This document shows positions 10,691-50,208 of a DNA stretch of 50,350 nucleotides, one piece after another (within the stretch, counting starts at the first letter, position 1; each line of letters begins with the position of its first letter). The position numbers and the translations under genes are program-made. Source of the DNA: Bacteroidaceae bacterium (GTDB lineage: Bacteria > Bacteroidota > Bacteroidia > Bacteroidales > Bacteroidaceae); NCBI GenBank assembly GCA_017453465.1, contig JAFTEV010000056.1:1-50350 (forward strand). The letters run 5' to 3'. A model generated the notes under the pieces. It saw only the letters and a program-made list of their open reading frames with translations, had not been told where the DNA came from and did no database searches.

Positions 10691-10941
10691 GGAAAGTAGG
10701 GAGGTAGGCAGGGAAAGTAGTGGTGTAGGCAATGAAAGTTGACGCAACGGCGTTGTTTGTAAAAACAATGAGCGATGTTTATAAAAACAACGGCGTTGTT
10801 TTCAAAAACAACGCCGTTGCGTCAACTTTTCTTTTCACACTGGAAAAGTTTGAACTTTAGAGGGGAAAAGTTTGTGCTTCACTGTGGAGCAGCTGGGACT
10901 TCACTGTGAATGACTTTTGCCCTCATTGTGAATGACTTCAG
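10691..10941. repeat. Degenerate 21-22 bp tandem array A
   Basis: About 11 units without spacers fill most of the 385-bp gap. Landmarks repeat at fixed distances: GAAAG at 10692, 10713, 10734; AAAAACAA at 10761, 10783, 10804; GGAAAAGTTTG at 10842 and 10864; CACTGTG (or CATTGTG) at 10880, 10902, 10924. Unit sequence drifts strongly from left to right while the period holds. The period is not a multiple of three, so it is not a protein repeat. The remaining bases up to 10690 hold nothing recognised. Confidence 0.7.
10735..10829. repeat. Perfect 24-bp inverted repeat inside array A
   Basis: Arms at 10735-10758 and 10806-10829 are perfect complements (core GACGCAACGGCGTTG). The 47-bp interior holds a further small palindrome around AACGGCGTT (10787-10797). 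On RNA this would form a very stable hairpin behind the TonB-receptor gene, a possible terminator though no T run follows at once. Confidence 0.65.
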
Positions 10942-10958
10942 AATGTAGTGTGGTGGGG

Positions 10959-13079
10959 TCAGAGCTTCAGCCGCACGCCGCCCATGAACCAGAATCCCGG
11001 TTGCAGGACATTGCCGAAATCGACGTAGCGGTGGTTGGTCAGGTTGTTCAGCTGGGCATAGAGTTCGTAGTGACGTTCAGTCCACTGCAGGCGGAGGTCC
11101 AGCAGGGAGAACGGCTTGTAGCTGCTCTTCTGCATGAAGGTGTAGGTCTGCCAGCCCAGGGCATTCGGCGTGGTGTGGCTGGTGTCGTACTCGTAGTAGG
11201 TGCCCATGCGGTCCTGCAGGCGGTAGCTCAGGGTAGCCGTGAGTCGGCGGATGGGGCGCACGGTGAGCGAGGCCACAAGCTTGTGGCGCAGGTAGTTCAG
11301 TCCGTAGTAGCTGTCGTCGAGGTCCACGTCGTCGTGGCGCGACTGGTGGATGAAGCTGTACTGCACCGTGAGGTCGCGCAGGACGCTCCGCTCGCCCAGC
11401 AGCTCCGGGAACTTCACGTTGGCCGAGGCCGATACGCCCATGTTGTTGATGCGCAGGTTGGTGGCGTGGTATGTGGTGTATTGTCCGCGTCCGTACTTCA
11501 CGACCGAGTCGGTGGGGATTACCCAGTCAATCATGCTCGTTTCGTGGCGGTGGTAGGCACGCAGTGTGGCCTCCAGTCCCGTGATGCGCCACTTGGCCGA
11601 GAGGCTAAATTCGCTGCTGCGCTCTGGGCTGAGGTCGGCGTAGCCCACCTGCGTGGGACTTTTATAATAGAGGTCGGTGAAGGTCGGCATACGTTGCGCC
11701 ATGTTCCAGGCAGCAAAGAGCGTGAGCCTGGGTGTGGGGCGGTAGCTGATATCGACACCGGGGTAGAGGCGGAAGCGATGGTCCAGGCCCGTGTTCATAT
11801 TGGCCATGAGGCCGAAGCTGAAGGTGAACTGGCGGAGCAGCACATCGTGCTCCAGGTAGTAGCACACGTTGGTGCGGTTGTCCTTCTTGGTGTACTGGCG
11901 GTCGCTGCCTGGGATGTCCACCAGCTTGCTCTCCGTCAGGGGCTGTCCGAGAGCCGTCGAGAGGATGCCCTCATTGCGGAACTCTGCGCCCAGGGCTGTG
12001 ATGCCCCCCTGCCAGCGGGTCTGTGCGTGGAGGTTGGCTCCATAGACATTCGTCTGGTGGTAGTTTTCCTGTGTGGGCGAAAGGCCGCGTATGAGCTGGT
12101 AGTGGTCGAGGCTGCGCTGCCAATAGACTGTGGGCTGCAACTGGATGCGCCCCTTGGTGCGGGCCGAGAGGCTGAGGATGTAGTGGCGGTTCTCTTCATA
12201 CTGGTCGGGAAACTTGCCGCTGTAGAAGGTGTTGGCACCATACTGCTGGCTGCTCAGGCCCAGTTGCCAGCGGAAGTCAGCTCCCTGTGTGGCGGTGCCG
12301 CCACCCCAGTAGGCATTGAGGCGCGAAAAGTCGCTGTTGTCTGTAGCCCCGTCGCTGCGGCGGTAGCCAGCCGAGAGATTGCTGAAGAAGGAGTTCTTCT
12401 TTGCGCGGAAAGCTCCCTCTGCGCCTGCCGTGCCGAAGGAGCCGCCATGCAGTGCGACCGTGCCGCCGAGGGGCTTGGCAGGTTGCTGGCGGGTGACGAT
12501 GTTGATGGCTCCGGAGAAGGCACTGGTGCCATAGACACGGCTGGCTGCGCCTTCGAGAATCTCGATGCGTTCAATGTCGTCGATGTTAAAGGGGAAATCT
12601 GCTGCGAGGTGCCCGGTGTGGGGCGAAGAAAAATTCACACCGTTGATGAGCAGAAGGATTTGGTCGTGCGTGCCGCCATTGATGCTGATGTCCGTTTGAA
12701 TGCCGAAACCGCCGCGCTGTCGGACATCTACTCCAGCTGCGTACTTCAGAAGGTCGTTCACCGACTGCGCAGGGCAGTCCTTGATTTGTTCTCTCGTCAT
12801 GACGCTGACGATGCGTGCGGTCTGCTCCATTGTGAGCGGGACGCGCTGGGCGGTAATCTCCACGTCGCTGAGCCTTATGCCCTCGCCGTTCTGCTCCTGT
12901 GCGGGAGCCATGGCAGTCTGTGCTGTGGCACTCTGCGGAGTGGCATAGGCAAGCGTGGCAACCGAGAGCACGCCGATGCGGATTTCCTTGCCGAGGCTGC
13001 GGAAGATGGCATCGTGGCGACGGCTGAATTGGTGCCAGCAGATGGTGTCCGCCTTTAACTTTAGTTTTCTTTTAAACAT
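10959..13079 (-). CDS. TonB-dependent outer-membrane receptor, BtuB-like
   Basis: 706 residues. It begins with the long, basic N-terminal extension seen on one class of Bacteroidetes receptors (MFKRKLKLKADTICWHQFSR, then FRSLGKEIRIGVLSVATLAY as the hydrophobic core). A TonB-box-like segment (LSDVEITAQRV), a plug domain (about 85-200, with NDLLKYAAGVDVRQRGGFG and RIEILEGAASRVYGTSAFSGA) and a 22-strand-type barrel ending in an aromatic/hydrophobic C-terminus (GGVRLKL) follow. BtuB-like members import cobalamin, but related receptors take up siderophores or heme and there are no transporter genes beside it to decide. Monocistronic with its own promoter. The leader is only about 45 nt, so there is no room for a cobalamin riboswitch. 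Confidence 0.85.
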   Translation of the reverse strand: MFKRKLKLKADTICWHQFSRRHDAIFRSLGKEIRIGVLSVATLAYATPQSATAQTAMAPAQEQNGEGIRLSDVEITAQRVPLTMEQTARIVSVMTREQIKDCPAQSVNDLLKYAAGVDVRQRGGFGIQTDISINGGTHDQILLLINGVNFSSPHTGHLAADFPFNIDDIERIEILEGAASRVYGTSAFSGAINIVTRQQPAKPLGGTVALHGGSFGTAGAEGAFRAKKNSFFSNLSAGYRRSDGATDNSDFSRLNAYWGGGTATQGADFRWQLGLSSQQYGANTFYSGKFPDQYEENRHYILSLSARTKGRIQLQPTVYWQRSLDHYQLIRGLSPTQENYHQTNVYGANLHAQTRWQGGITALGAEFRNEGILSTALGQPLTESKLVDIPGSDRQYTKKDNRTNVCYYLEHDVLLRQFTFSFGLMANMNTGLDHRFRLYPGVDISYRPTPRLTLFAAWNMAQRMPTFTDLYYKSPTQVGYADLSPERSSEFSLSAKWRITGLEATLRAYHRHETSMIDWVIPTDSVVKYGRGQYTTYHATNLRINNMGVSASANVKFPELLGERSVLRDLTVQYSFIHQSRHDDVDLDDSYYGLNYLRHKLVASLTVRPIRRLTATLSYRLQDRMGTYYEYDTSHTTPNALGWQTYTFMQKSSYKPFSLLDLRLQWTERHYELYAQLNNLTNHRYVDFGNVLQPGFWFMGGVRLKL

Positions 13080-13128
13080 AAAGCGTTTTTTTAAGGGTTA
13101 ATAAATGATGTTTGTTGAAAAACGGCTG

Positions 13129-13160
13129 CAAAGGTACGCTTTCGCCCCGATTTCTGCAAT
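13129..13160 (-). promoter_or_regulatory. Promoter of the TonB-dependent receptor gene
   Basis: Minus strand: ATTG (13160-13157), 20-bp spacer, TACCTTTG (13136-13129). About 50 bp before the ATG at 13079. Confidence 0.65.
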
Positions 13161-13241
13161 GAAAGGCTGTTGTTTTTTTAAAACTCTACTCAAAAAACAT
13201 AATAAAACTTAATGCCTTGTGGTGGTTCGGGAAAAATGACA

Positions 13242-13249
13242 TAAATTTG
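13242..13249 (+). promoter_or_regulatory. Probable -7 box for the MORN gene
   Basis: TAAATTTG fits TAnnTTTG; a CTTG at 13216-13219 stands 22 bp upstream, a slightly long spacer. About 25 bp before the ATG at 13275. Confidence 0.45.
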
Positions 13250-13274
13250 TGGTCGAATCAAAACAAGACTGCGT

Positions 13275-14396
13275 ATGAAACTCTACAGATATATTTTGTT
13301 CGGTTGCCTCGCCTTTGCTTCTACCGCCATGGCGCAGAAGGTGTCGATAGGCAACTATGTTTTCCCCAAGGACAAGGCTACATACTACGGCGACCTGGAG
13401 GGCGGCAAGCCCAACGGGAAGGGTAAGACAACCTTCCAGAACGGCGACAGCTACGAGGGCGAGTATGTGAAGGGCAAGCGTCAGGGCTACGGTGTGTATG
13501 TGTTTGCCGACGGTGAACGCTACGAGGGCGATTGGCACCAGGACCACCAGCACGGCAGGGGTACCTACTACTTCTCGAACAACAACAAGTATGAGGGCCT
13601 GTGGTACACCGACTACCAAGAAGGCGAAGGCACGATGTACTACTTCAACGGCGACAAGTATGTGGGCACCTGGAAGCAGGACAAGCGTGACGGCGAAGGC
13701 ACCTACACGTGGGCCAACGGCGTATATTATAAAGGTGGCTGGAAGGACGATAAGAAGTCAGGCAAGGGCATCTACGATTGGCGCGACGGCAGCAGCTATA
13801 GCGGCGACATGCTCTACGACCTGCGCAACGGACAGGGCACCTTCATCTATGCCAACGGAGACAAGTATGTGGGCGGCTGGAAGGACGACCTCATGCACGG
13901 CAAAGGCATCTACATCTTCAACAACGGTGACAAGTATGAGGGTGAATACCTCAACGGCGAGCGCACAGGCCAGGGCATCTTCACCTATACCGATAAGCGC
14001 AAGTACATAGGCCAGTTTAAGGACGGGCTGATGGAGGGCGTGGGCACCTACACGTGGCCTGACGGCTCGAAATATGAAGGCAGCTGGATTGCCGACAAAG
14101 AGAGCGGCAGAGGCAAGTACGTTGGTGCCAACGGCGATGTGTATGACGGTGAGTGGCACGACGGAATGATGCACGGCGACGGTGTGCTCCGTATGTCGGA
14201 CGGCTCCAAGTTCAAGGGGCACTTCAAGAATGGCATGAAAGACGGCAAGTGCGTAGAAGAGACAGCCGACGGAGTGCGCTTTGAGGGCACTTACGTCAAC
14301 GACCTCAAGGACGGCTACTTTGTGGAGAAGAACCACAACGGGACGGTTCTGCGCAAGGGATATTACAGCAAAGGCAAACTGCAAATTGTACAATAG
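13275..14396 (+). CDS. Exported protein of 14 MORN repeats
   Basis: 373 residues: signal peptide (MKLYRYILFGCLAFASTAMA), a short linker, then 14 consecutive MORN repeats of exactly 23 residues (pattern YxGxWxxxxxxGxGxxxxxxGxx) from about residue 37 to 358, and a short basic tail. MORN repeats form an elongated beta-sheet and in other systems bind lipid heads or proteins; bacterial exported forms have no settled role. The regular period and lack of any enzymatic domain suggest a structural or binding protein in the envelope. The suhB start follows the stop by only 3 bp, so the genes are co-transcribed. Confidence 0.9.
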   Translation: MKLYRYILFGCLAFASTAMAQKVSIGNYVFPKDKATYYGDLEGGKPNGKGKTTFQNGDSYEGEYVKGKRQGYGVYVFADGERYEGDWHQDHQHGRGTYYFSNNNKYEGLWYTDYQEGEGTMYYFNGDKYVGTWKQDKRDGEGTYTWANGVYYKGGWKDDKKSGKGIYDWRDGSSYSGDMLYDLRNGQGTFIYANGDKYVGGWKDDLMHGKGIYIFNNGDKYEGEYLNGERTGQGIFTYTDKRKYIGQFKDGLMEGVGTYTWPDGSKYEGSWIADKESGRGKYVGANGDVYDGEWHDGMMHGDGVLRMSDGSKFKGHFKNGMKDGKCVEETADGVRFEGTYVNDLKDGYFVEKNHNGTVLRKGYYSKGKLQIVQ

Positions 14397-14399
14397 ACC

Positions 14400-15200
14400 G
14401 TGGAAGGAACTGACCTACAGCAAATCCTTCAGCAAGTGAAGGAGGTGGCACAGCTGGCTGGCGGCTACATTCGTGAGCAGCGGCAGAGTTTCGACTCCAA
14501 GCGGATTGAAACGAAGGGCACGCACGACTACGTCAGCTATGTGGACCGACAGACGGAAGAACTGATTGTTGCCCGTCTGAAGGACATCCTGCCACAGGCG
14601 GGATTCCTCACGGAAGAGAAGACCACTGCCAACAACTCGACACATGAATACACTTGGGTGATTGACCCGCTGGACGGCACCACCAATTTTCTGCATGGAC
14701 TGGCTCCCTATTGCGTAGCGATTGCGCTGCGGCAGGGCAGCCAGCTTTTGCTTGGTGTGGTCTATGAGGTGGTGGCCGACGAACTCTTCTGGGCCTGTCA
14801 GGGCAGTGCGGCCTACCTGAACGGCAAGGAAATCCGCGTCAGCGCTGTGACGAGAGTGACCGACGCACTGGTCTGCTTCGGCTACCCCTACAATGTCAAC
14901 GAGTGGTCGCCCGTGATGCAGCGGCTCGTGCGTGAATACTATGGCTCGTGTGCCAGCATTCGCAACCTGGGTTCAGCCGAGGCCGAACTCTGCTACATCG
15001 CCTGCGGACGCTTCGATGCCTATGTGGAATCGTACCTGAAGCCCTGGGACGTCTCTGCCGGAGCCATCATCCTGCAGCAGGCGGGTGGACATATCTCCGA
15101 CTACGGCGGCGGTGACGGCTGGACGGAAGGCCGTGAGGTACTGGCCACCAACGGACGGGTGCACGCCGAAATGCTGGACATGCTGAAGACTGTACTTTAA
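14400..15200 (+). CDS. suhB: Inositol monophosphatase family protein
   Basis: 266 residues, normal length. Metal-binding motif 1 IDPLDGTTNF (88-97) and motif 2 WDVSAGAIILQQAGG (near 217) are complete, and TEE (71-73) gives a further metal ligand. The family hydrolyses inositol-1-phosphate and related phosphates with Mg; some members act on 3'-phosphoadenosine phosphate, which cannot be excluded. The start is GTG at 14400: it follows the MORN stop by 3 bp and no upstream ATG is available in frame. Confidence 0.9.
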   Translation: MEGTDLQQILQQVKEVAQLAGGYIREQRQSFDSKRIETKGTHDYVSYVDRQTEELIVARLKDILPQAGFLTEEKTTANNSTHEYTWVIDPLDGTTNFLHGLAPYCVAIALRQGSQLLLGVVYEVVADELFWACQGSAAYLNGKEIRVSAVTRVTDALVCFGYPYNVNEWSPVMQRLVREYYGSCASIRNLGSAEAELCYIACGRFDAYVESYLKPWDVSAGAIILQQAGGHISDYGGGDGWTEGREVLATNGRVHAEMLDMLKTVL

Positions 15201-15235
15201 TAAAACCTTATTATCAATATTACCCCCATCAAGCT

Positions 15236-15691
15236 ATGATTATTGACACACTTGACAATCTCGGCAAATATGCCGCACTGAATCCACTCTTCCCCAAGGT
15301 AGTGGCCTACATTCAGCAGAACGACCTCAATGCCCATGAGCCAGGAAAGGTTCAGATTGAGGGCGCAGACCTCTTTGTGAACTACAACGTCTCGAAGGGC
15401 AAGACCAAGGAACAGGCCCGCATCGAGAGTCACAACAGGATGATTGACATCCAGATTCCGCTCAACGTGCCCGAAACCATGGGCTACACGGCTCGCACGG
15501 CATTGCCGGAGGCCGAGTACAACGCCGAAAAGGACATCACGTTCTATCCCGGACTGGCCGAAACTTACGTCACCGTGCAGCCAGGCCAGTTTGCCATCTT
15601 CTTCCCGCAGGATGGCCATGCGCCTTGCGTCAGTGACGCACCGGAAATCAAGAAAGTAATCTTTAAAGTAAAAGCGAATCAAGAAGAGTGA
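15236..15691 (+). CDS. YhcH/YjgK/YiaL family protein (DUF386)
   Basis: 151 residues, a single small cupin-like domain. Family features visible: the E-(S)-HxxxIDIQ segment (ESHNRMIDIQIPL, about 63-75) and a C-terminal FAIFFPQDGHAPC with a conserved His, both probable metal ligands. Homologues include EbgC and YiaL and bind sugars or sugar acids, with anomerase-type roles proposed. It follows suhB by 35 bp on the same strand and probably shares its transcript. Confidence 0.87.
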   Translation: MIIDTLDNLGKYAALNPLFPKVVAYIQQNDLNAHEPGKVQIEGADLFVNYNVSKGKTKEQARIESHNRMIDIQIPLNVPETMGYTARTALPEAEYNAEKDITFYPGLAETYVTVQPGQFAIFFPQDGHAPCVSDAPEIKKVIFKVKANQEE

Positions 15692-15700
15692 AAAGTGAAG

Positions 15701-15785
15701 AGTGAAAAGTGAAAAATCTAAGTTTGAGCTTAGTTAGCATAAGGTTGCGTTTAGTCCCCGTAACTCGGATTTTTCACTTTTCACT
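15701..15785. repeat. 18-bp perfect inverted repeat of GTGAAAA words
   Basis: Arms 15701-15718 and 15768-15785. The left arm continues a tandem of GTGAAAAGTGAAGA words starting at 15688, the right arm ends in TTTCACT words. It separates the yhcH stop from glgB and may be a terminator. Confidence 0.65.
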
Positions 15786-15838
15786 TTTCACTATTCACTT
15801 AACCTTAAACATAACGTCACATTTTAATAAAATATACT

Positions 15839-17887
15839 ATGGCAACAAAGAAGAACACCAAGGCTCCGGCTGTGAAGCACATCGGACTGGTCAAGAACGA
15901 CGGCTGGCTGGAACCCTATGAAGAGGCAATCCGTGGCCGTCACGACCACGCGCAGTGGAAACTCAACGACCTCACTCAGAACGGCAAGATGACGCTGAGC
16001 GACTTTGCCGACGGCTATCTCTATTTTGGTCTGCACAAGCAGGACAAGGGCTGGGTGCTGCGCGAGTGGGCTCCCAACGCAACCGAAATTTATGTTGTGG
16101 GCGACTTCAACGACTGGCAGGAGAACCCGAAGTACAAGATGAAGGCCCTGAAGAACGGCAACTGGGAGCTGAAGCTCACAGACAAGCAGATGAAGCACGG
16201 CGACCTGTTCAAGCTCCGTGTGAAGTGGAACGGTGGCGAGGGTGAACGCATTCCGGCCTGGATTAACCGTGTGGTACAGGACGAACAGACCAAGATTTTC
16301 TCGGCACAGGCTTGGGCACCCGCCGAGCCTTATCAGTGGAAGAAGAAGAACTTCAAGCCCAACACGGCCCCGCTGCTCATCTATGAATGTCACATCGGCA
16401 TGGCGCAGGACGCAGAAAAGGTGGGCACCTACACGGAATTTAAGGACAACATCTTGCCGCGCATTAAGAAAGAGGGTTACAATGCCATCCAGATTATGGC
16501 CATAGCCGAGCATCCCTACTACGGCTCTTTTGGCTACCACGTGAGCAATTTCTTTGCGGCCAGCAGTCGATTTGGCACACCCGAAGAGCTGAAGGCTCTC
16601 ATCGACGAGGCACACAGCATGGGCATTGCCGTCATCATGGACATCGTGCACAGCCACGCTGTGAAGAACGAACTGGAAGGCTTGGGTAATTTCGCCGGCG
16701 ATGGCAGCCAGTACTTCCACAGCGGTCCACGCCGCGAGCACAACCAGTGGGATTCGCTCTGCTTCGACTACGGCAAGAATGAGGTGCTGCACTTCCTGCT
16801 CTCCAACTGCAAATACTGGCTGGACGAGTACCACTTCGATGGTTACCGCTTCGACGGCGTGACCTCCATGCTCTACTACAATCACGGACTGGGCCAAGCC
16901 TTCGGTGGCTACGGCGATTATTATAATGGTGCCGAGGACGACGATGCTATCTGCTACCTGACACTGGCCAATGTGCTTATCCACGAGGTGAACCCACGCG
17001 CCATCACCATTGCAGAGGAAGTCAGCGGAATGCCTGGCTTGGCTGCGCCGTTCAAGGATGGCGGCTTCGGATTTGACTATCGTATGCAGATGAATGTGCC
17101 TGACTACTGGATTAAGACCATGAAGGAGCGCAAGGACGAAGATTGGAAACCGTCGAGCATCTTCTGGGAACTGACCAACCGAAGGGCTGACGAGAAGACT
17201 GTCACCTATGCCGAGAGCCACGACCAAGCCCTTGTGGGTGACAAGACGGTTATCTTCCAGCTCATCGACGCTGATATGTACTGGCACTTCAAGAAGGGTG
17301 ACGAGAACTTCATGGCGAACCGTGGCATTGCCCTGCACAAGATGATTCGCCTCGTTACAGCCAGTACGCTCAACGGCGCATACCTCAACTTCATGGGCAA
17401 TGAGTGGGGACATCCCGAATGGATTGACTTCCCACGCGAGGGCAATGGATGGAGCTACAAGTATGCACGCCGTCAGTGGAACCTGGTGGATAATCACGAA
17501 CTCTGCTACCACTATCTGGGCGACTTCGATGAGGCCATGCTCGCCGTGCTGAAGTCGGAGAAGAACATCCAGAAGACACCTGTGCAGGAAGTCTGGCACA
17601 ACGATGGCGACCAGATTTTGGCCTATACCCGTGGCGACTTGCTGTTTGTCTTCAACTTCAACCCAAGTCAGTCGTTCACGGACTACGGTTTCATTGTGTC
17701 CCAGGGAGCCTACGATGTGGTGCTCAACACTGATAGCAAAGCCTTTGGCGGCAATGACCTGGCCGATGACTCGGTGCGCCATTTCACCAACTACGACCCC
17801 ATCTACGAGAAAGACCACAAGGGCTGGCTCAAGCTCTACATTCCTGCTCGCTCGGCTGTGGTACTTAGAAAGGCCAAGGACGAATGA
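15839..17887 (+). CDS. glgB: 1,4-alpha-glucan branching enzyme
   Basis: 682 residues: N-terminal CBM48 (about 55-160, VLREWAPNATEIYVVGDFND), a GH13 barrel, and a C-terminal all-beta domain. Catalytic residues can be placed: nucleophile Asp in FDGYRFDGVTSM (near 337), acid Glu in TIAEEVSGMPG (near 392), and the third Asp in AESHDQALVGD (near 461). The sequence is closer to the eukaryote-like GH13_8 type than to the E. coli type. It forms alpha-1,6 branches in glycogen in the cytoplasm. No other glycogen gene is in the window. The next gene overlaps its stop by 4 bp (ATGA). Confidence 0.95.
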   Translation: MATKKNTKAPAVKHIGLVKNDGWLEPYEEAIRGRHDHAQWKLNDLTQNGKMTLSDFADGYLYFGLHKQDKGWVLREWAPNATEIYVVGDFNDWQENPKYKMKALKNGNWELKLTDKQMKHGDLFKLRVKWNGGEGERIPAWINRVVQDEQTKIFSAQAWAPAEPYQWKKKNFKPNTAPLLIYECHIGMAQDAEKVGTYTEFKDNILPRIKKEGYNAIQIMAIAEHPYYGSFGYHVSNFFAASSRFGTPEELKALIDEAHSMGIAVIMDIVHSHAVKNELEGLGNFAGDGSQYFHSGPRREHNQWDSLCFDYGKNEVLHFLLSNCKYWLDEYHFDGYRFDGVTSMLYYNHGLGQAFGGYGDYYNGAEDDDAICYLTLANVLIHEVNPRAITIAEEVSGMPGLAAPFKDGGFGFDYRMQMNVPDYWIKTMKERKDEDWKPSSIFWELTNRRADEKTVTYAESHDQALVGDKTVIFQLIDADMYWHFKKGDENFMANRGIALHKMIRLVTASTLNGAYLNFMGNEWGHPEWIDFPREGNGWSYKYARRQWNLVDNHELCYHYLGDFDEAMLAVLKSEKNIQKTPVQEVWHNDGDQILAYTRGDLLFVFNFNPSQSFTDYGFIVSQGAYDVVLNTDSKAFGGNDLADDSVRHFTNYDPIYEKDHKGWLKLYIPARSAVVLRKAKDE

Positions 17888-25041: not shown

Positions 25042-25127
25042 CGAACAATTATCGAATCATCCACCATTTTGCAACAAAAAAACACGCTTTTTAAGAGAAA
25101 ACAGCATTTTACGACTGCCAGCGCACC

Positions 25128-25303
25128 CCCATTGCAGTGGCAGAGCCGTGGCACTGCACTCCCGCCGCAGTCCCATCGCAGTGCCACCTGTCCCGCACTG
25201 CGGTGTCACCGCATTCCCACTGCGGTGGTAATCTTTTACCACTGTGATGGTAATCTTTTACCACTGCGATGGTACTCCAGTGACAATGCAGTGCCACTTC
25301 GCT
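25128..25303. repeat. Degenerate 22-bp tandem array B
   Basis: Eight units of exactly 22 bp without spacers. CACTG (A/G)-type cores recur at 25218, 25240 and 25262 with the shared downstream words GATGGTAATCTTTTAC; left units carry TTGCAGTGGCA and GCACTGC. It fills the gap between two divergent genes and ends 50 bp before the promoter of the plus-strand gene. The rest of this 427-bp gap holds only the two promoters listed. Confidence 0.75.
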
Positions 25304-25354
25304 GCAGAAGCATCGCCGCTTTTGCGGCACTTTTATCCTTTTTCTTTCCGTCTG

Positions 25355-25386
25355 TTTGGTGGTTTATAAAAAAAGGGCTACATTTG
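25355..25386 (+). promoter_or_regulatory. Promoter of the 1256-residue secreted protein gene
   Basis: TTTG (25355-25358), 20-bp spacer, TACATTTG (25379-25386). About 35 bp before the ATG at 25421. Full consensus fit. Confidence 0.7.
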
Positions 25387-38747: not shown

Positions 38748-38779
38748 GGAATCGTTTTCGTCAGTGTGGTGGGTGGTGG

Positions 38780-41274: not shown

Positions 41275-41278
41275 GTTG

Positions 41279-41432: not shown

Positions 41433-41465
41433 GTGGTTTTTGTTTTGTCGTGTGGAAGTCGTTTT

Positions 41466-41720
41466 TTACTTCTTCTTCATTGCAGCATAACGGTTCATGA
41501 ACTTATCTACGCGACCTGCAGTGTCGACGAGCTTAGCCTTGCCGGTGTAGAATGGGTGGGAAGTTGACGAGATTTCCAATTTGACTACTGGATATTCCTG
41601 ACCTTCGAAGATTTCGGTGTCAGTAGATTTCGCTGTGGAGCGAGAGAGGAACATGTCGCCGTTTGACATATCCTTGAAGATAACGGGACGATAGTTCTCT
41701 GGGTGAATACCTTTTTTCAT
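41466..41720 (-). CDS. rpmE2: 50S ribosomal protein L31 type B
   Basis: 84 residues; [19 protein letters not shown] and the C-terminal [18 protein letters not shown] are typical. It has no cysteine, so it is the zinc-free form. It has its own promoter with a full consensus. Confidence 0.95.
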
Positions 41721-41812
41721 TGTGTTTTTAAACGTTTAAAAAATTTATACTATTACGGGCTGGGACGGTTTGTATGCGTCTCGCACTGTGTAATGGGTTA
41801 TTTTCCGGGCGG

Positions 41813-41843
41813 CAAAGGTACGGCTTTTTCCTGAAACGGCAAA
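41813..41843 (-). promoter_or_regulatory. Promoter of rpmE2
   Basis: Minus strand: TTTG (41843-41840), 19-bp spacer, TACCTTTG (41820-41813). It leaves a leader of about 90 nt. Confidence 0.7.
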
Positions 41844-41935
41844 GTGTTTGGGGAGAAAAAGTGAAAAGAAAGGGGCGAAAATGTGAAATCTCCGCCCCTT
41901 TCCGTCGTGTTTTATGTTGTCAGCGTACCTATGGC

Positions 41936-43225: not shown

Positions 43226-43280
43226 AGTCTTTTACAGTTTTTTTATGTGTTAATAATTTGTTGTTTTCTGATTTCCGCTG

Positions 43281-43312
43281 CAAAGTTATGGCGATTATGA
43301 AGAACTACCAAG
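43281..43312 (-). promoter_or_regulatory. Promoter of metY
   Basis: Minus strand: CTTG (43312-43309), 20-bp spacer, TAACTTTG (43288-43281), about 55 bp before the ATG. No S-box or SAM-riboswitch-like fold was seen in this short leader. Confidence 0.6.
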
Positions 43313-43459
43313 AAAACGACTTAACTAAAGGAAATGTTTCCGATTTCTGCATTTTTGCAAGATAAATATTTTGCTGGATTCTGATTTGTTAAAATTTTCT
43401 TCCTTCCCGCTTCGTTCCCGTCTGGCTGGCACTGCGCTCTATATATAAATAATGTGTAG

Positions 43460-43635
43460 TCCTGTTGCGGTGGCAAAGTTCTCCCGTTGCAGTGGTAAAG
43501 TACTCCTGCTTCGGTCTGAGAGTTCTCTCACTTCGGTGGCAGAGTTCTCTCACTTCGGTCTGAAAGTTCTCTCGCTGCAACGGCAAAGCAGTGCTACCGC
43601 AACAGGAGAGTTGTCCCGTTGCAGTAGCACTGCTT
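43460..43635. repeat. Degenerate 22-bp tandem array C
   Basis: Eight units of exactly 22 bp without spacers. Most units read TC(C/T)C-x-(G/T)TTGCxGTGGCAAAG-TTC-like; adjacent copies share TCTCACTTCGGT. The seventh unit reads mostly as the complement of the others, so an inner inverted stretch (about 43566-43635) arises, e.g. GCAGTGCTACCGCAACAGG against the complement of the last unit. The remaining part of the 436-bp gap holds only the metY promoter. Confidence 0.75.
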
Positions 43636-43661
43636 TGTGGCTTGATAGTTATAGGATTGAG

Positions 43662-44660
43662 CTATTTCACTTCATTCACCAGTTCAAGTCCCTCCTCGAA
43701 GTCCTTGATGTTTTGCAATGTGGTCTGTGCGATGTTCTGCACGGCTTCCTGCGTGAAGAAAGCCTGGTGGGAGGTGACGATAACGTTGGGCATCATCAGC
43801 AGCAGAGCCAGCTTGTCGTCGTCAATCATCTTGTCGGAGCGGTCCTCATAGAAGTAGTTGGCCTCTTCCTCATAGACATCGAGGCCCGCCGAACCAATCT
43901 GGTGGGAGCGCAGTCCGTCGATGAGGTCTTCGGTCTTGATGAGTTTGCCGCGTCCCGTGTTGATGATCATCACGCCGTACTTCATCTTCGTGATGCTGTC
44001 GTTGTTGATGAGGAACTTCGTCTCTTCGGTCAGCGGGCAGTGGAGCGAAATGATGTCCGACTGCTCATACAGTTCGTCCAGCGTCACCAGCCTTACGCCG
44101 TACTGCGCGGCAAACTCCTTGTCGGGATAGAGGTCGTAGGCCAGGATGTTCATGCCGAAGCCATGCAGAATCTTCACCAGCTCCTTGGCGATGCGTCCCA
44201 GGCCCACCAGCCCTGCTGTCTTGCCGTACATGTCGTATCCCAGCAGTCCGTTGAGCTTGAAGTTTCCCTCTCTGGTGCGATAGACAGAGCGATAGACCTT
44301 GCGGTTGAGTGCCATCATCAGCGTGACGGCATATTCTGCCACGGCATGGGGAGAGTAGGCCGGCACGCGCACCACCCGTATGCCCTCCTTCTGTGCAGCC
44401 CTCACATCGACATTGTTGAAGCCAGCGCAGCGCAGTGCAATCAGTTTCACGCCGTTGCGGGCCAGCTCTGCAATCACCCTGCTGTCACATTCTGCGTTCA
44501 CGAAGATGCAGACCACGTCCACGCCTTGCGTCAGCGACACCGTGTTCATGCTGAGTCGTTCCTTGTAGTACAGAATTTCATAGCCGAAGGTTTTGTTCAC
44601 TCGGTCGAAAGTTTCGCGGTCATAACTTTTCGCGTCGAAAAAGGCAATTTTTGTTGTCAT
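43662..44660 (-). CDS. D-lactate dehydrogenase-like 2-hydroxyacid dehydrogenase
   Basis: 332 residues. NAD-binding GLVGLGRIAKEL (about 150-161), substrate Arg in LRCAGFNNVD-type context, catalytic Glu and His in the usual places (His in TSHQAFFTQEA near 297). Length and the YSPHAVAEYAV segment fit the fermentative D-LDH group (LdhA). It reduces pyruvate to D-lactate in the cytoplasm. Own promoter; divergent from a small ORF. Confidence 0.9.
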   Translation of the reverse strand: MTTKIAFFDAKSYDRETFDRVNKTFGYEILYYKERLSMNTVSLTQGVDVVCIFVNAECDSRVIAELARNGVKLIALRCAGFNNVDVRAAQKEGIRVVRVPAYSPHAVAEYAVTLMMALNRKVYRSVYRTREGNFKLNGLLGYDMYGKTAGLVGLGRIAKELVKILHGFGMNILAYDLYPDKEFAAQYGVRLVTLDELYEQSDIISLHCPLTEETKFLINNDSITKMKYGVMIINTGRGKLIKTEDLIDGLRSHQIGSAGLDVYEEEANYFYEDRSDKMIDDDKLALLLMMPNVIVTSHQAFFTQEAVQNIAQTTLQNIKDFEEGLELVNEVK

Positions 44661-44700
44661 AGCATTCTCAAATAAAGATGGGTTAGCAATTGTCTGGCTG

Positions 44701-44732
44701 CAAAAGTACTCAAACTTTGGCGACTATCCAAA
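44701..44732 (-). promoter_or_regulatory. Promoter of the D-lactate dehydrogenase gene
   Basis: Minus strand: TTTG (44732-44729), 20-bp spacer, TACTTTTG (44708-44701). About 40 bp before the ATG at 44660. Confidence 0.7.
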
Positions 44733-44771
44733 AACTTTCCGCCTAAATTTCGCTGTGTTCAGATTTCTTTG

Positions 44772-44779
44772 TATCTTTG
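44772..44779 (+). promoter_or_regulatory. -7 box for the small ORF
   Basis: TATCTTTG at 44772-44779, 23 bp before the ATG at 44803; the -33 position reads TTCG, a weak match. Confidence 0.5.
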
Positions 44780-44802
44780 TCGCCGTATTTGTAAATAAAG
44801 AT

Positions 44803-44952
44803 ATGTTAGCAAATAATAGTGAGGTGCCAGACAATGGCGATTTGGATAACCTCGATGAAGAAATACGTCTGTCCTTGAAAAGCGGAGATGCAACAGTAGA
44901 TGAGGTAAGAGCCGTTTTCAGTCGATGGGGTATTGAAAATACAAATTCATAA
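44803..44952 (+). CDS. Small acidic protein, 49 residues
   Basis: MLANNSEVPDNGDLDNLDEE opens a short acidic protein with a likely helix (EEIRLSLKSGDATVDEVRAV) and a closing FSRWGIENTNS. An ATG further up (44755) would lie before the -7 box, so I start at 44803. I know no family. It is preceded by a good -7 box and followed by a structured non-coding stretch. Confidence 0.45.
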   Translation: MLANNSEVPDNGDLDNLDEEIRLSLKSGDATVDEVRAVFSRWGIENTNS

Positions 44953-45009
44953 ATTTCTTTAACCTATAAAATATGATTTTGCCAATGAACTAAACAACAA
45001 ACAAAAGAC

Positions 45010-45208
45010 ATAAGGAAAATAGAAGCGTCCGCTTTTTGTTCTTGTTCTTGAAATTCTCCCAAAAAAGTAAAGAATCTACGAGAGTAAAAGATGTGATGCC
45101 TATGCCAATGGCGTGGGCTTTTACTCGTTAAAGTAGATTAGGTGTTTGGGAGATACCTCAAGAACATAGACGAAGTTAAATAGTCCGCGCTTTTGATTTC
45201 TGTCTTAT
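45010..45208 (+). ncRNA. Rod-like structured RNA candidate, possibly 6S RNA
   Basis: A 199-nt segment folds end to end into one interrupted hairpin by visible pairing: ATAAG 45010-45014 with CTTAT 45204-45208; AGAAGCG 45021-45027 with CGCTTTT 45188-45194; GTTCTTGA 45044-45051 with TCAAGAAC 45158-45165; TCTCCCAAA 45055-45063 with TTTGGGAGA 45145-45153; AATCTAC 45073-45079 with GTAGATT 45133-45139; GAGTAAAAG 45082-45090 with CTTTTACTC 45118-45126; ATGCC 45096-45100 with GGCGT 45110-45114. Length, paired ends, and a large internal bubble resemble 6S RNA (ssrS). No coding potential. It lies in the 302-bp gap between the small ORF and a lipoprotein gene on the same strand, so it could also be a leader. 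No promoter box directly in front and no T-run at its end. Confidence 0.45.
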
Positions 45209-45254
45209 CCCAAAGAAGGATTATATTGTTTAATTTATAAAAAGAAAAGGAAAA

Positions 45255-45671
45255 ATGAAAAGAACATTTCTTAATTTGAAAATGGTTGGCTGTATGCTTG
45301 CCGTTGTCTTTGTAGTCTTAACTATGGCTGCTTGTGGGAGTGATGAAAAAGAAGATACCTCTACAATCAATCTGAATGAGGCAGTAGGAACATGGATGTG
45401 TATTTCCAGCACAGATACTTATCAGGGTGTGAGCTACACAGGTTTGCTTACAGGTGCAGAAATAACAATTAAAAATGATGGCTCTTACACTTCAACGGCC
45501 AGTAGTTTTGGAAAACAGGGAAGTTTTACAATAAATGGAAACACAATAACTGCTAAAAATAGTTCTGGCGATACATTTGTTGTAACTGTTTCTATTAAGG
45601 ACAACACCATGACATGGCAGGGAACATCCAGTACAGGAGTTTCTTTCCGTTATGTTTTTACAAGAGAATAA
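45255..45671 (+). CDS. Lipoprotein with a lipocalin-like domain
   Basis: 138 residues. The signal sequence ends in the lipobox LTMAAC with Cys27, followed by a Glu/Asp-rich spacer (GSDEKEDTS). The body is eight or so short beta-strands (GTWMCISSTDT, EITIKNDGSYTST, TFVVTVSIKDNTMTWQG) and resembles the small lipocalin-like lipoproteins that are common in Bacteroidales. Function unknown. Confidence 0.8.
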   Translation: MKRTFLNLKMVGCMLAVVFVVLTMAACGSDEKEDTSTINLNEAVGTWMCISSTDTYQGVSYTGLLTGAEITIKNDGSYTSTASSFGKQGSFTINGNTITAKNSSGDTFVVTVSIKDNTMTWQGTSSTGVSFRYVFTRE

Positions 45672-45690
45672 TGCAGTCTTAATATGAATT

Positions 45691-45721
45691 ATGGGTTCCT
45701 GCCACTACAGCGGGAACCCAT
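45691..45721 (+). terminator. Hairpin behind the lipoprotein gene
   Basis: ATGGGTTCC (45691-45699) pairs with GGAACCCAT (45713-45721), loop 13, followed by TATTCATTC. Located between convergent genes. T content after the stem is modest. Confidence 0.55.
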
Positions 45722-45749
45722 TATTCATTCTATGCAGCGTGTGCTGCTC

Positions 45750-47216
45750 TTATTTTGTGATGGGCTTGTACTTCGGCACGAGCATCTTCATGAGTGCCCA
45801 GGCAATGAGGTAGGCCACAGCGCAGTAGCAGAAGACAATCATGTAGCCGGCGGGCTTGCCAGTTACGCCGAAGAACTGGAAGGCTTCGCCCTGCTGTTCG
45901 GCATGGGTGAAGAGCAGACCGCTGCCCCAGTTGATGGCGAAGGAACACAGTCCGCCGAACATGGTGCCTATGCCGGTGATGGAGGCGATGGCACTCTTGG
46001 GGAACATATCGCCAATGGTGCTGTAGAGGTTAGCTGACCAGGACTGGTGACCAGCACCTGCCAGGCCGATGATGATGCAGGGGAACCACACCGAAGAGGC
46101 TGCCAGCGGCTGGGCAAACATGGCGAAGATGGGGAAGAAGGCGAAGATGAGCATGGCGAGCATACGGCCCGAATAGGGTTCCATGCTTTTCTTTTCTACA
46201 AAATACTTGGGCAGGTAGCCGCCGCCAATGCTCACTACGGTCACGATGAGGTAGAGCACGAAGATGAGGGCTTGTCCCATGGGGTCGGACGACTTGTAGC
46301 CCAGCTCAGAGAAGTAGGCTGGTGCCCAGAAGAGGAAGAACCACCACACGCCGTCGGTGAGCAGTTTGCCCACGATGAAAGCCCATGTCTGGCGGTAGGT
46401 GAAGCACTTCATGAACGGAATCTGCAGGTTGTCGTTGGCCTGCTGTCGGGTGGGGGCAGCTGTGGCTGCAGCTTCCTCGGCTGGCGCATTGCTGTCCTGC
46501 TGAATGTAAGCCAATTCCGCGCTGTTCACGTGTGCACTCTCGTTGGGCTTGTTGTAAAGCACGGCCCAGAGGATGGCCCAGATGAATCCGATTCCACCAA
46601 TGATGATGAAGGCCATTTCCCAGCCCATGGCTTCGGCCAAGACGGGGATGGTGAGCGGAGCGGCCAGTGCACCCACGCTGGCACCTGCGTTGAAGACAGA
46701 TGTGGCCAGTGCACGGTCTTTCTTGGGGAAGTATTCGGCTGTCACCTTGATGGCTGCGGGGAAGTTGCCAGCCTCGCCCGTGGCCAGCACAATGCGGCAA
46801 GCCAGGAAGAGCCATACGGAGACGGTGGAGATGGCCAGTGCCAGGTCTGTGCCAGCCTTCACTGCGCGGAGGGTTTCAATGTCGGCAATGTCGGTGAGCG
46901 ACATGGTGACGATGCCGCAGCCTGCGTGCAGACAGGCGCCGAGGCTCCAGATGACGATAGCCCAGATGTAGCCTTTCTTGGTGCCCATCCAGTCGATGAA
47001 TTTTCCGGCAAAGAGCGAAATGATGGCGTAGAAGATGGAGAAGATGGCCGTGATTTTGCCGTAGTCGGCATCGGTCCAGTGGAAATCGACGGCGATAAAG
47101 TCTTTCCATGTGAGCGAAAGTACCTGGCGGTCCATGTAGTTCACGGTGGTTGCCAGGAAGAGCATGGCGCAAATTACCCAGCGGTAATTGGTCATTTTTT
47201 GAAATGATTGTGACAT
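45750..47216 (-). CDS. MFS transporter, hexuronate (ExuT)-type
   Basis: 488 residues, about 12 membrane segments. The opening RWVICAMLFLATTVNYMDRQVLSL and the loop AGKFIDWMGTKKGY with the ATGEAGNFPAAIK segment match anion:cation symporters of the ExuT/GudP group, which take up hexuronates and aldarates with protons. The central loop is longer than usual and Ala/Gln-rich (about 242-260). No uronate catabolic gene is nearby, so the substrate is a guess. Same strand and 45 bp behind folB. Confidence 0.85.
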   Translation of the reverse strand: MSQSFQKMTNYRWVICAMLFLATTVNYMDRQVLSLTWKDFIAVDFHWTDADYGKITAIFSIFYAIISLFAGKFIDWMGTKKGYIWAIVIWSLGACLHAGCGIVTMSLTDIADIETLRAVKAGTDLALAISTVSVWLFLACRIVLATGEAGNFPAAIKVTAEYFPKKDRALATSVFNAGASVGALAAPLTIPVLAEAMGWEMAFIIIGGIGFIWAILWAVLYNKPNESAHVNSAELAYIQQDSNAPAEEAAATAAPTRQQANDNLQIPFMKCFTYRQTWAFIVGKLLTDGVWWFFLFWAPAYFSELGYKSSDPMGQALIFVLYLIVTVVSIGGGYLPKYFVEKKSMEPYSGRMLAMLIFAFFPIFAMFAQPLAASSVWFPCIIIGLAGAGHQSWSANLYSTIGDMFPKSAIASITGIGTMFGGLCSFAINWGSGLLFTHAEQQGEAFQFFGVTGKPAGYMIVFCYCAVAYLIAWALMKMLVPKYKPITK

Positions 47217-47261
47217 GATGTTGTTAAGGTTTTTAAGTGATAAGGTTATATGGTTTTTAGG

Positions 47262-47627
47262 TTAGTTAAAGGTCTGTTCTATCTCGATGCCAGCCCCTTG
47301 CAGGTCGGCTCCCATGGGCGGATTGTCCTTGATGAGCCGCAGTTTGATGGCTGTCACTGTGGGGAATTGCTGCCGCAGCGCGTGGATGATTCTGCCGCCC
47401 ACGTGTTCGAGCAGCTGGCTGGGTGTGGCCATTTCGCGGCGCACCACATCGCAAACCTCGGCGTAGCTCACAGTGCCGCAGAGCTGGTCGGTCTCCATGG
47501 CCTGCGTGAAGTCGGTCTCCAGTCGCAGGTCGATGGTGAAGTAGGCTCCCACGGTGCGTTCCTGTGGCAGCACGCCATGGTGGGCGTAGATGCGTAGGCC
47601 GTTGATGAGGATGGAGTGGTGGGGCAT
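47262..47627 (-). CDS. folB: Dihydroneopterin aldolase
   Basis: 121 residues. The family opening is ILINGLRIYAHHGVLPQER; the conserved SYAEV and the catalytic Lys in KLRLIKDNPPMG are present. It cleaves dihydroneopterin in folate synthesis. Lies 97 bp behind the RNR-like gene; the gap between them is filled by 9-bp repeats. Confidence 0.93.
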   Translation of the reverse strand: MPHHSILINGLRIYAHHGVLPQERTVGAYFTIDLRLETDFTQAMETDQLCGTVSYAEVCDVVRREMATPSQLLEHVGGRIIHALRQQFPTVTAIKLRLIKDNPPMGADLQGAGIEIEQTFN

Positions 47628-47653
47628 GGGCGGTGGGGCTTTGGGTGGTGGGG

Positions 47654-47725
47654 CCGGTTTTGCCGGGTATTCTGGCTTTTCCGGAAAAGCCGGACTTTCC
47701 GGAAAGACCGGGCGTTCTGGCTGCT
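47654..47725. repeat. Eight 9-bp repeats of form CCGGnnnnn
   Basis: C(C/T)GG recurs exactly every 9 bp from 47654 to 47717. Units include CCGGTTTTG, CCGGAAAAG, CCGGACTTT and CCGGAAAGA, so neighbouring units form local palindromes around TCCGGA. It fills the space between the RNR-like gene and folB and runs into the former's stop codon. In one plus-strand frame it reads as Gly-x-x triplets, but this ORF is antisense and not supported. Confidence 0.7.
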
Positions 47726-48240
47726 TAGCTTATCTCGGCGTTGTCAAGTTCCTCTGGGCTTTCCGTGTTCTGCAGGTAGCGTTTCAGTGCGCGTGCCACG
47801 CCGTCTTTCCATGAGTTGATGTTGTCGCTGTCGGCCTCCAGCGAACTGACCACTTTGATGGCGTGTTCGAGGGGCATACGGTAGCGCAACATCCCAGAGA
47901 TAAGCTTGGCGTAGTTCCAGTATTCCTTGTTGAATCGCTCGCTAAGTCCTTCAATGGTAGTCTTGTAGCCTCGGCGGTTGATAAACTGGAAGTCGTAACG
48001 CTTCTGCCCTTTTTCCTCGTCCATGCTTTTGATGATGTAGCCCTTGGTCACAGTCTTGGGCAAGGCGATTCCGTCTTCATCGTCGAGCACACCCGTGAAA
48101 ATTTCGTATGGGTTGCCATCAAGGAGTCCCACGAAAGCAACCCATTTTTCTTTGTTGTTCTGGAAACGTACCACGTCGCATTCGAGCACCTTGGGGCGCA
48201 CTTCAGTGACTTCTGGCCAGTTGATTTGCTTGTTTTCCAT
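47725..48240 (-). CDS. Stand-alone protein resembling the C-terminal part of class II ribonucleotide reductase
   Basis: 171 residues. The segments RPKVLECDVVRFQNNKEKWV and AFVGLLDGNPYEIFTG followed by a helical EYWNYAKLISGMLRYRMPLE region look, from memory, like the end of adenosylcobalamin-dependent ribonucleotide reductases (NrdJ) of Bacteroidales, where they lie between the barrel and the cysteine tail. The C-terminal cysteines and the barrel are missing. It may be a regulatory or substrate-binding paralogue, or the resemblance may be partial. It follows aspS by 5 bp and precedes folB. Confidence 0.55.
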   Translation of the reverse strand: MENKQINWPEVTEVRPKVLECDVVRFQNNKEKWVAFVGLLDGNPYEIFTGVLDDEDGIALPKTVTKGYIIKSMDEEKGQKRYDFQFINRRGYKTTIEGLSERFNKEYWNYAKLISGMLRYRMPLEHAIKVVSSLEADSDNINSWKDGVARALKRYLQNTESPEELDNAEIS

Positions 48241-48245
48241 TGTTT

Positions 48246-50006
48246 TTATTCCTTGGGTAAGTTGAGTGCAATGAAGTCTTCGTCCAGCTGCTTCTGGTCA
48301 ACGCAGCTGGGCGCATCGAGCATCACGTCGCGTCCGCTGTTGTTCTTCGGGAAGGCAATGCAGTCGCGGATGCTGTCGAGTCCAGCGAAGATGCTGACCC
48401 AGCGGTCCAGGCCGTAGGCGAGTCCGCCATGTGGGGGTGCGCCATACTTGAAGGCGTTCATCAGGAAGCCAAACTGCTCTTCGGCCTTTTCGGGTGTGAA
48501 GCCCAGAATCTCGAACATCTTGGCTTGCAGCTTGGGGTCGTGGATGCGGATGGAGCCACCGCCCACCTCGATTCCGTTGCACACCATGTCGTAGGCATCG
48601 GCACGCACGGCAGCCGGGTCGGTGTCGAGCATCGGGATGTCTTCGTCCATCGGGTGTGTGAAGGGGTGGTGCATGGCCATGAGTCGGCCTTCCTCCTCGC
48701 TCCATTCAAACATGGGGAACTCGGTGACCCAGAGCAGGGCAAACTTGTTTTTGTCGCGCAGTCCGAGACGCTCGCCCATCTCCAGACGCAGTTCGCACAG
48801 CTGCTTGCGTGTTTTCATAGCGTCGTCGCCGCTGAGGATAAGGATGAGGTCGCCGGGCTGGGCTTGCATCTTTGCCTTCAGTGCTTGCAGGTCGTCCTGG
48901 GTATAGAACTTGTCGATGCTCGACTTCACGCTGCCGTCTTCCTGCACACGGGCATAGACCAGTCCCTTGGCACCAATCTGCGGACGCTTCACCCATTCGG
49001 TCAGCTTGTCGATGTCTTTCCGGGTGTAGGAAGCACAGCCGGGGGCGCAGATGCCACCGATGTATGCCGCGCTGTCGAACACGGCAAATGTGCCTTTCTT
49101 CAGTGTGTCGTCCAGTTCGACGAACTCCATGCCGAAGCGCATATCTGGCTTGTCGGAGCCAAAGCGTTTCATGCACTCAATCCAGGGCAGACGCAGGAAT
49201 GGTTCGCCCAGTTCCACGCCACGCAGCTCCTTGAACAGGTGCTTGGCCATGCCCTCGAAGGTCTGGATGATGTCCTCTTGTGTGACGAATGACATTTCGC
49301 AGTCAATCTGTGTAAATTCGGGCTGACGGTCGGCACGCAGGTCTTCGTCGCGGAAGCACTTCACAATCTGGAAGTAGCGGTCGAATCCGGCCACCATGAG
49401 CAATTGCTTCAGTGTCTGCGGGCTTTGTGGCAGAGCGTAGAATTGGCCTGGGTTCATGCGCGAGGGCACGATGAAGTCGCGTGCGCCTTCGGGTGTGGAA
49501 CCGATGAGCATGGGTGTTTCCACTTCGAGGAACCCCTGCTGGCTGAGGTAGTTGCGCACGGCAATGCAGAATTTGTGGCGCAATTCCAGGTTTTTGCGGA
49601 CTGCCGTGCGGCGCAGGTCGAGGTAGCGGTACTTCATGCGCAGGTCGTCGCCGCCGTCGGTATTGTCCTCGATGGTGAACGGAGGCAGCAGCGACTGGTT
49701 GAGCACCCTCAGCTCGTCCACTTCAATCTCGATGTCGCCCGTGGGCAGGTTCTTGTTCTTGTTGTAACGCTCGGCCACGGTGCCCGTAGCCTGAATCACG
49801 TATTCACGTCCCAGCTTGTTGGCCTCGGCGCACAGGTCGGCATTGGTCTCTTCATTAAACACCAGCTGCGTGATGCCGTAGCGGTCACGCAGGTCCACAA
49901 AAGTCAACGCCCCCATCTTGCGTGAGCGTTGCACCCATCCGGCAAGGGTTACCCGCTTGCCGGCATCGGAGAGACGCAGCTCTCCAGCTGTATGCGTTCT
50001 GTACAT
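48246..50006 (-). CDS. aspS: Aspartyl-tRNA synthetase
   Basis: 586 residues, bacterial type: an N-terminal OB-fold anticodon-binding domain (1-105), a class II catalytic core with motif 2 ([20 protein letters not shown] near 215) and motif 3 ([16 protein letters not shown] near 540), and a GAD insertion domain (about 295-420). It attaches Asp to tRNA-Asp. First of a minus-strand run with the RNR-like gene, folB and perhaps the transporter. The end ([14 protein letters not shown]) is complete. Confidence 0.97.
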
Positions 50007-50045
50007 CTTTTATTTTATAGTTTTATAGTTGATGTTTTTCATCTG

Positions 50046-50053
50046 CAAAGTTA
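50046..50053 (-). promoter_or_regulatory. -7 box of aspS
   Basis: Minus-strand TAACTTTG (50053-50046), about 40 bp before the ATG at 50006. The -33 element is weak. Confidence 0.5.
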
Positions 50054-50120
50054 ATGCAAAAAATTGACTATGCGAACAAAATGCCGTTTTTTTTAGTCTT
50101 TAGCCTGTTTTTCTCACACT

Positions 50121-50208
50121 GTAGTGCGGTTCGGGTGGCAATGCAGTGCGGTTTTGGTGGCAATGCAGTGCCCTTGCGGTAGCAATGCAGTGTGGTTCGG
50201 GTAGCAAT
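50121..50208. repeat. 22-bp tandem array D, four units
   Basis: Four contiguous 22-bp units, each opening with G(C/T)AGTG and ending with GG(T/C)... GCAAT, plus a partial fifth (GCTGCC). These are the best-conserved copies of the family. Located between the aspS promoter region and the 3' end of the next gene. The rest of this gap holds nothing else recognised. Confidence 0.85.

Follow-up and report, generated by a model that had tools for sequence, protein, structure and literature searches.

Four non-coding tandem arrays lie between the genes of a 50,350-nucleotide stretch of DNA from a Bacteroidaceae bacterium (GenBank assembly GCA_017453465.1, contig JAFTEV010000056.1; hereafter the window). 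We judge the chances to be about even that such arrays are short non-coding elements of several dispersed families, each element being a row of putative dimer-binding sites and spread in the manner of miniature inverted-repeat transposable elements (MITEs). More tentatively, they may form a genus-wide intergenic class defined by geometry and not by sequence, in which at least three dyad sites follow one another at an exact step close to two helical turns. Many unrelated families would re-code this layout, each family or species with a step of its own; such a class would be the DNA half of a putative fast-evolving protein–DNA system, mobile or chromosome-organising. The window is the entire contig C40 of a draft genome (G000, the own genome; 3.16 Mb, 85% complete), which we call Prevotella-like because the nearest records to the 2-hydroxyacid dehydrogenase of the window are from Prevotella and Prevotellaceae (81–84%). 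G004 denotes a sister species and the remaining G-numbers further genomes; L-numbers denote loci or stretches.

Array A is composite. Its left part (10691–10739) holds about 2.3 degenerate 21-bp units (GGAAAGTAGGGAGGTAGGCAA), as seen with Tandem Repeats Finder (TRF) and in the sequence; its core (10735–10829) forms a discrete element of 95 bp that has AAAGTTGACG...CGTCAACTTT as inverted ends and contains four mirror-symmetric sites; and its right part (10826–10941) consists of degenerate 22-bp units, with a lag-22 signal at 10809–10970. Array B (25128–25303), between divergent genes, consists of 22-bp units like CCACYGCRGTGG, among which two TTACCA/TGGTAA units keep the same phase. Array C (43450–43637) is made of eight in-register 22-bp units, contains words like GCAAAGTTCTCC and terminates in a large inverted repeat, and array D (50121–50210) has four 22-bp units (AGTGCGGTTCGGGTAGCAATGC). 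TRF gave periods of 21 for A (three rows), 22 and a short 11 for B, 22/44 for C and 22 for D. The match fraction at lag 22 (0.48, 0.62, 0.61 and 0.81 for A to D) exceeded in every case the maximum at any tested lag in 300 dinucleotide shuffles (0.40, 0.42, 0.41 and 0.65). All four arrays are intergenic and flanked by long open reading frames (ORFs): A between the genes for a cytosine methylase and a TonB receptor, B between a DUF4468 gene and a divergently read long ORF, C between a Cys/Met pyridoxal phosphate (PLP)-enzyme gene and the 2-hydroxyacid dehydrogenase gene, and D upstream of the gene for a class II tRNA synthetase. A sequence-only reading of the window had described four tandem intergenic arrays of 21–22 bp period, and these results bear it out. 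Its common core of B, C and D is likewise genuine, since the local alignment score was reached by 0 (B–D), 1 (C–D) and 8 (B–C) of 300 shuffles; the scores of A against B, C and D were reached by 118, 266 and 279. Arrays B, C and D are related to one another and A is unrelated to them. The proposal of a single fast-diverging repeat family therefore stands for B–D but not for A, and several unrelated families have the same architecture. The sequence-only reading had overlooked that the units are mirror-symmetric and that A contains a discrete element.

In most arrays a mirror-symmetric core, P, alternates with a word, W; P is specific to the family, and within each family the step from one P to the next hardly departs from a single value, which is 21, 22, 23 or 24 bp. 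By eye, units of CCACYGCRGTGG carry words like GCAAAGTTCTCC, in either orientation at the same phase, and further cores are CAACGGCGTTG, GATTCTTAAGAATC, GTACCCGAGGGGTAC, GGTGTGAGTCACACC and TTACCA/TGGTAA, as well as GAACATATGTTC, which is followed by varying 10-base words. Column permutation supported the symmetry of A and B (P=0.005 each) and of C (P=0.045). Because this test gave high z values for some coding arrays too, a second one was run, comparing reverse-complement with plain mirror symmetry; the former was the greater in 35 of 43 arrays of period 20–24, as against 13 of 62 of period 7–16 and 2 of 9 of longer period.

A fixed step with free intervening sequence was found in three families of relatives, all of them other than the B–D family. 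For the first we ran the free-gap pattern TCACACCN{3,17}GGTGTGA on 41 genus genomes, with the reversed pattern as control. Twenty genomes matched, with at least 218 forward matches (none in the own genome, at least 40 each in G014 and G055), and the control gave 0–3 per genome. Among the 75 matches listed the gap was 9 in 70; four, which are all those of G007, had a gap of 8 and one had 16, and the letters in the gap varied. Some matches adjoin within one element and so are not all independent. When the gap was allowed to range from 0 to 30 in 300 kb of G010, it was 9 in 14 of 14. All eight multi-site GGTGTGA elements (seven from G010 and one G055 locus) had exactly three sites at 24, 24 bp, and their 24 sites matched the degenerate core with 0 mismatches, with W varying; the G010/G055 sequence also contained two isolated weak single sites of this family. 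In the second family, from G004, the gap from TTACCA to TGGTAA was 6 in 14 of 17 and that from TGGTAA to TTACCA was 4 in 11 of 12. Nine rows of this family (eight loci) showed a 12/10-bp alternation of half-sites, broken once by an interval of 22 at a missing half-site. Part of array B (25214–25274) matches TTACCA-family places of G004. At several G004 loci of the family (L154/L339, L334, L336, L337, L157 and L160), direct-orientation half-sites 11 bp apart cap the ends, unlike the alternating interior; such caps occurred on one or both ends in 7 of 9 rows.

The third family is that of the array-A element, which has at least 20 distinct copies in the own genome at 89–97% identity (the copy on contig C81 was left out as a duplicate of that on C106). 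Its half-sites resemble AAACANCG, and one site has an extra base, giving steps of 21 and 22 bp. The own-genome copies have this additional base in the second site, and one indel has therefore become fixed in the element. G004 has 16 loci of the family (76–86% to the window copy), one at the orthologous position, and four other genomes gave weak matches only. Of the 17 G004 rows, 16 fitted the site pattern, and all their 48 steps were 21 bp. L159 and L330 are one element; only L309 of the 16 loci failed, because of one substitution, and its sequence still reads 21, 21, 21. Thirteen own rows gave no fit because of the extra base. Aligned over 96 bp, the 15 distinct G004 copies, which were chosen by 21-bp spacing, had a mean identity of 0.79, with 210 differences from the majority and 0 alignment gaps. 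The arms of P showed no covariation in these copies (183 of 256 cells paired, 186.8 expected); that they vary independently fits protein half-sites and not a maintained hairpin, and we rejected hairpin constraint on this ground. In the same copies (L225, L234, L296–L333), half-sites facing across W were never of the same type (0 of 45, 8.4 expected), as if a perfect inverted repeat were avoided, which is the opposite of pairing; the own-genome copies break this rule by eye. The general characters of a MITE (short, non-coding, inverted ends, multicopy) are found together in the array-A element only. The earlier suggestion of selection on spacing thus gains support from the fixed gaps of the sister families, though not from the B–D family itself, which gave only scattered counts.

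The B–D family is also dispersed. Array C as a query found 22 places in the own genome at E≤1e-3 (two within itself, some on duplicate contigs, and neither array B nor array D among them) and 24 places in G004, with none in the other 39 of the 41 genomes at that sensitivity. The abundance of arrays at large was estimated from random 20-kb stretches, in which we counted intergenic arrays of period 20–24 together with 44- and 33-bp harmonics and 11-bp arrays. The own genome had 14 in 400 kb (including one truncated duplicate and one 11-bp array, with about 32 kb of duplicate sequence), G004 8 in 160 kb, G016 3 in 120 kb, G017 3 in 55 kb, G002 2 in 100 kb, G010 5 in 100 kb and G024 3 in 49 kb, a density of 2–6 per 100 kb in all seven tabulated genus genomes; a set of Prevotella loci had 4 in 158 kb. 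G003, available as 20 kb of short contigs, had none, and G011, with only 11 kb, was left out of the table. The same scan outside the genus found 1 in 100 kb of G026, 0 in 100 kb each of G031 and G032 and 0 in 62 kb of G039 and G027 (1 in 362 kb for the order), as well as 0 in 486 kb of 61 other loci and 0 in 50 kb of Escherichia coli. In a second sample, of 200 kb from each genome, G010 yielded 14 candidates, an 11-bp array among them, and G002 yielded 6. The G000 draft contains redundant sequence: where contigs C81 and C106, and C12 and C92, were compared, they have stretches of up to 12 kb in common at 100% identity.

The step differs between species and families: G000 and G004 have 21–22 bp, G002 and G017 mostly 23, G016 and G024 23 and 22, and G010 23, with 24 for one family there. 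Loose TRF peaks agree, lying at 21–22 in own sequence and at 23 when the other genus members are pooled, and loose rows of 20–24 or 43–46 bp numbered 33 in 450 kb of own sequence, with a mean indel rate of 3.5%. The check proposed in the sequence-only reading, an autocorrelation of intergenic sequence, was made on random stretches and succeeded in part: the summed signal peaks at lag 22 in the own genome and in G004. Binding on one DNA face, which that reading had also suggested, does not hold in general, as 23- and 24-bp steps are common in relatives.

The fixed spacing, the absence of gene-orientation bias described below and the lack of arm covariation in the one family tested together lead us to prefer sites on DNA for an oligomeric protein, carried by MITE-like elements, to either RNA hairpins or neutral minisatellites. 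In the mechanism that we propose, each P would be a mirror-symmetric site for one protein dimer, and W would keep the centre-to-centre step at 21–24 bp, about two helical turns, its length mattering more than its letters. Adjacent dimers would touch, so that three or more sites could form a cooperative nucleoprotein array, and indels in W would be selected against. A step of 23–24 bp would not hold sites on one face of straight B-DNA, and contact would therefore be from protein to protein along the DNA. The families would spread by copying, as MITEs do, and turn over, and their intergenic slots would persist for some time. We infer that the B–D arrays act like the families tested for spacing, and any benefit to the host is likewise conjectural. 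A nucleoid or partition protein, named earlier as the possible binder, is neither shown nor excluded.

Several observations weigh against this interpretation. B–D half-sites tried in own stretches gave scattered single or double gap counts, the symmetry of array D is weak (P=0.10, column permutation), and 8 of the 43 arrays of period 20–24 lack a reverse-complement excess. In 113 adjacent-unit comparisons from 40 arrays, with 958 mismatches in 3061 base comparisons, the best lag differed from the array period in 9, a count biased towards regularity because the arrays were found by constant period. The summed autocorrelation of G002 and G010 has no top at 22–24, and lag 21 leads in the non-genus control set L071–L132; loose TRF rows also occur outside the genus, at lower density (4 in 362 kb, indel rate 3.5%; 12 in 486 kb, indel rate 9.1%). 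As to mobility, repeats of 3–9 bp abutting the element as target-site duplications were seen in 0 of 12 own array-A copies, and of 2 bp in 1 (1.15 expected). No autonomous partner was seen among the listed own matches, which are near full length (21 of 41 candidates scored, in a draft 85% complete). One array-free orthologous site resembles an expansion or contraction and not a clean insertion, with no target-site duplication seen there. Finally, unit number varies in the B–D family, and at the L036 slot, where the flanks are 97–98% identical, G004 has five perfect unit copies and G000 one, a whole-unit amplification.

The last two observations are what neutral minisatellites would produce, growing by slippage and by template switching at inverted repeats and inheriting a common period from ancestral arrays. 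Words in both orientations at the same phase, and word content that differs between the sister species at conserved slots, point the same way. We nevertheless regard this explanation as unlikely, though the best of the alternatives: the letters of W change without a change in length while P stays, the 15 array-A copies of G004 combine 210 substitutions with 0 gaps, and the number of sites is invariably three or four in the two families counted.

Conservation of position bears on a second alternative, in which the arrays are chromosome-organising or regulatory sites of the host, bound by a nucleoid, partition or insulator protein, and not mobile elements. In G004 there are arrays at the slots of A, C and D, the word order of C being altered and the word of D mostly in the opposite orientation, and arrays are also found at the G004 sites of L036, L038, L023 (one flank) and L041:19467 (one flank). 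At L045:4963 the G004 site holds an array of another family, adjoining a 5-kb difference in gene content. The flanks of array B lie far apart in G004, with no clear array by eye; the G004 counterpart of L030:197 is array-free; and L030:7499 meets a synteny break, with no such array within 2 kb on either side. In total, 8 of 11 locatable own arrays are matched by an array at the corresponding place in G004, compared with 0 of 13 array-free control gaps, a count compiled by hand from unlike comparisons and omitting the pairs L018/L142 and L029/L138, whose G004 side had been fetched for its array. It was made by hand because two automated comparisons performed poorly, one catching few array gaps and the other placing 1 of 31 arrays and 13 of 78 control gaps. 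This slot conservation, with the unbiased gene orientation, favours host sites. Against them, the slots are mostly empty across the genus (an array within 900 bp at 8 of 30 loci for D and 6 of 30 for C, own genome, G004 and one 11-bp array included), one family ranges from 0 to at least 40 matches per genome, and in the reverse direction the G004 array L153:14109 has an array-free own counterpart. We therefore consider host sites improbable, and more so than minisatellites.

Synteny breaks accompanied 6 of 7 array gaps and 6 of 19 others, a weak comparison, since one of the 'arrays' has a 7-bp period and one break counted as non-array is an unsearched stretch. In the window, three of the four arrays adjoin places where the sister species differ in the genes present or in their order (9428–10573, methylase genes; 43640–45750, dehydrogenase gene; 25094–25382, synteny break), again with weak statistics.

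The least probable reading is that the arrays act as RNA, in the form of tandem hairpins serving as terminators or mRNA stabilisers. The units can fold back on themselves, some arrays begin about 15 bases or less from a stop codon, and array C ends in the inverted repeat described above. However, among 32 arrays with both neighbours called, 10 lay between divergent, 15 between co-directional and 7 between convergent genes, roughly as the intergenic bases in each class would predict (28.4, 47.4 and 12.3 kb by crude ORF calls); this absence of orientation bias argues against terminators, and we rejected a role as terminator or 3′ untranslated region. RNA needs no fixed step from hairpin to hairpin, and the tested family showed neither covariation of arms nor identical half-sites across W. 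Rfam, run over the whole window at gathering thresholds, gave no match on its arrays, and a known RNA family was rejected for these; its one match in all was FopS, a small RNA of Bacteroidetes (RF04319), at 4367–4441 on the minus strand (69.1 bits).

If the protein-bound, MITE-like reading is true, the 2–6 arrays per 100 kb would amount, very roughly, to 50–190 per genome (for genomes of 2.6–3.2 Mb) in an abundant gut and rumen genus, read by a protein that measures spacing. The arrays would offer an entry point to chromosome organisation in Bacteroidota or to a class of mobile elements, and would explain how repeats evade similarity searches, the letters changing and the ruler remaining constant.

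Two other kinds of repeat were seen in the window. A second class of intergenic tandem array, of 7-bp (and 14-bp) period, occurs at 15683–15800 and 4557–4745 and in own stretches L029–L048; it mostly lacks mirror symmetry and numbers 15 in 400 kb of own stretches. An array of period 8/15/23 (ATTTGACAATTGGACAATTTACA) at 7794–7872 adjoins the gene at 6562–7788 and does not obviously belong to the described families.

Several known systems share features with the arrays. Clustered regularly interspaced short palindromic repeats (CRISPR) have palindromic repeats with words of constant length between them. The arrays differ in that W is about 2–12 bp, partly recurs between loci and occurs at many loci per genome; unique spacers of about 30 bp were not found, W being far shorter, and the earlier view that these are not CRISPR is consistent with such short words. 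The ends of Mu and Tn7 carry several transposase sites of about 22 bp, and so also present rows of protein sites; the arrays are evenly spaced and mirror-symmetric, and no transposase gene or attached element was seen with them. Repetitive extragenic palindromic (REP) elements and bacterial interspersed mosaic elements (BIMEs) are dispersed intergenic palindromes, as here, although the families described here have the step in common and not the sequence. REPs accompany REP-associated tyrosine transposases (RAYTs), and we rejected RAYT-driven REPs, as the own draft genome had 0 Y1_Tnp matches. Among draft genomes of the genus, 11 of 26 had any such match and 7 one over the cut-off; the drafts of G002, G010, G016 and G024 have arrays and 0 matches.

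A literature search, covering little of the subscription literature, found no account of such arrays in Prevotella, and BrickBuilt, a MITE of Porphyromonas gingivalis, was the only relative found; judging from the available passages of its description, it is the nearest described element. According to those passages, BrickBuilt has spacer-free tandem units of 23 nt, always intergenic, in 19 copies in one genome, with up to 22.8 units, a leader and tail of up to 285 and 318 nt and terminal inverted repeats like those of insertion sequences (Klein et al. 2015, PMC4596501). They also describe conserved and non-conserved unit positions, mention dyad symmetry and report a strain-variable number of units, and contain nothing on free letters at fixed spacing (PMC4596501). 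BrickBuilt thus resembles the Prevotella arrays in its order, Bacteroidales, in its spacer-free tandem units and in its intergenic position. Its ends differ, as the array-A element has short inverted ends without a long leader or tail, and arrays of the B–D type show no BrickBuilt-like leader or tail ends by eye. Against its unit of 23 nt, the arrays have periods of 21–22 bp for the own genome and G004; in G002 and G017 most are 23, and G010 has both 23 and 24. BrickBuilt as described in these passages is one repeat sequence, whereas the Prevotella arrays are several unrelated families that share a geometry.

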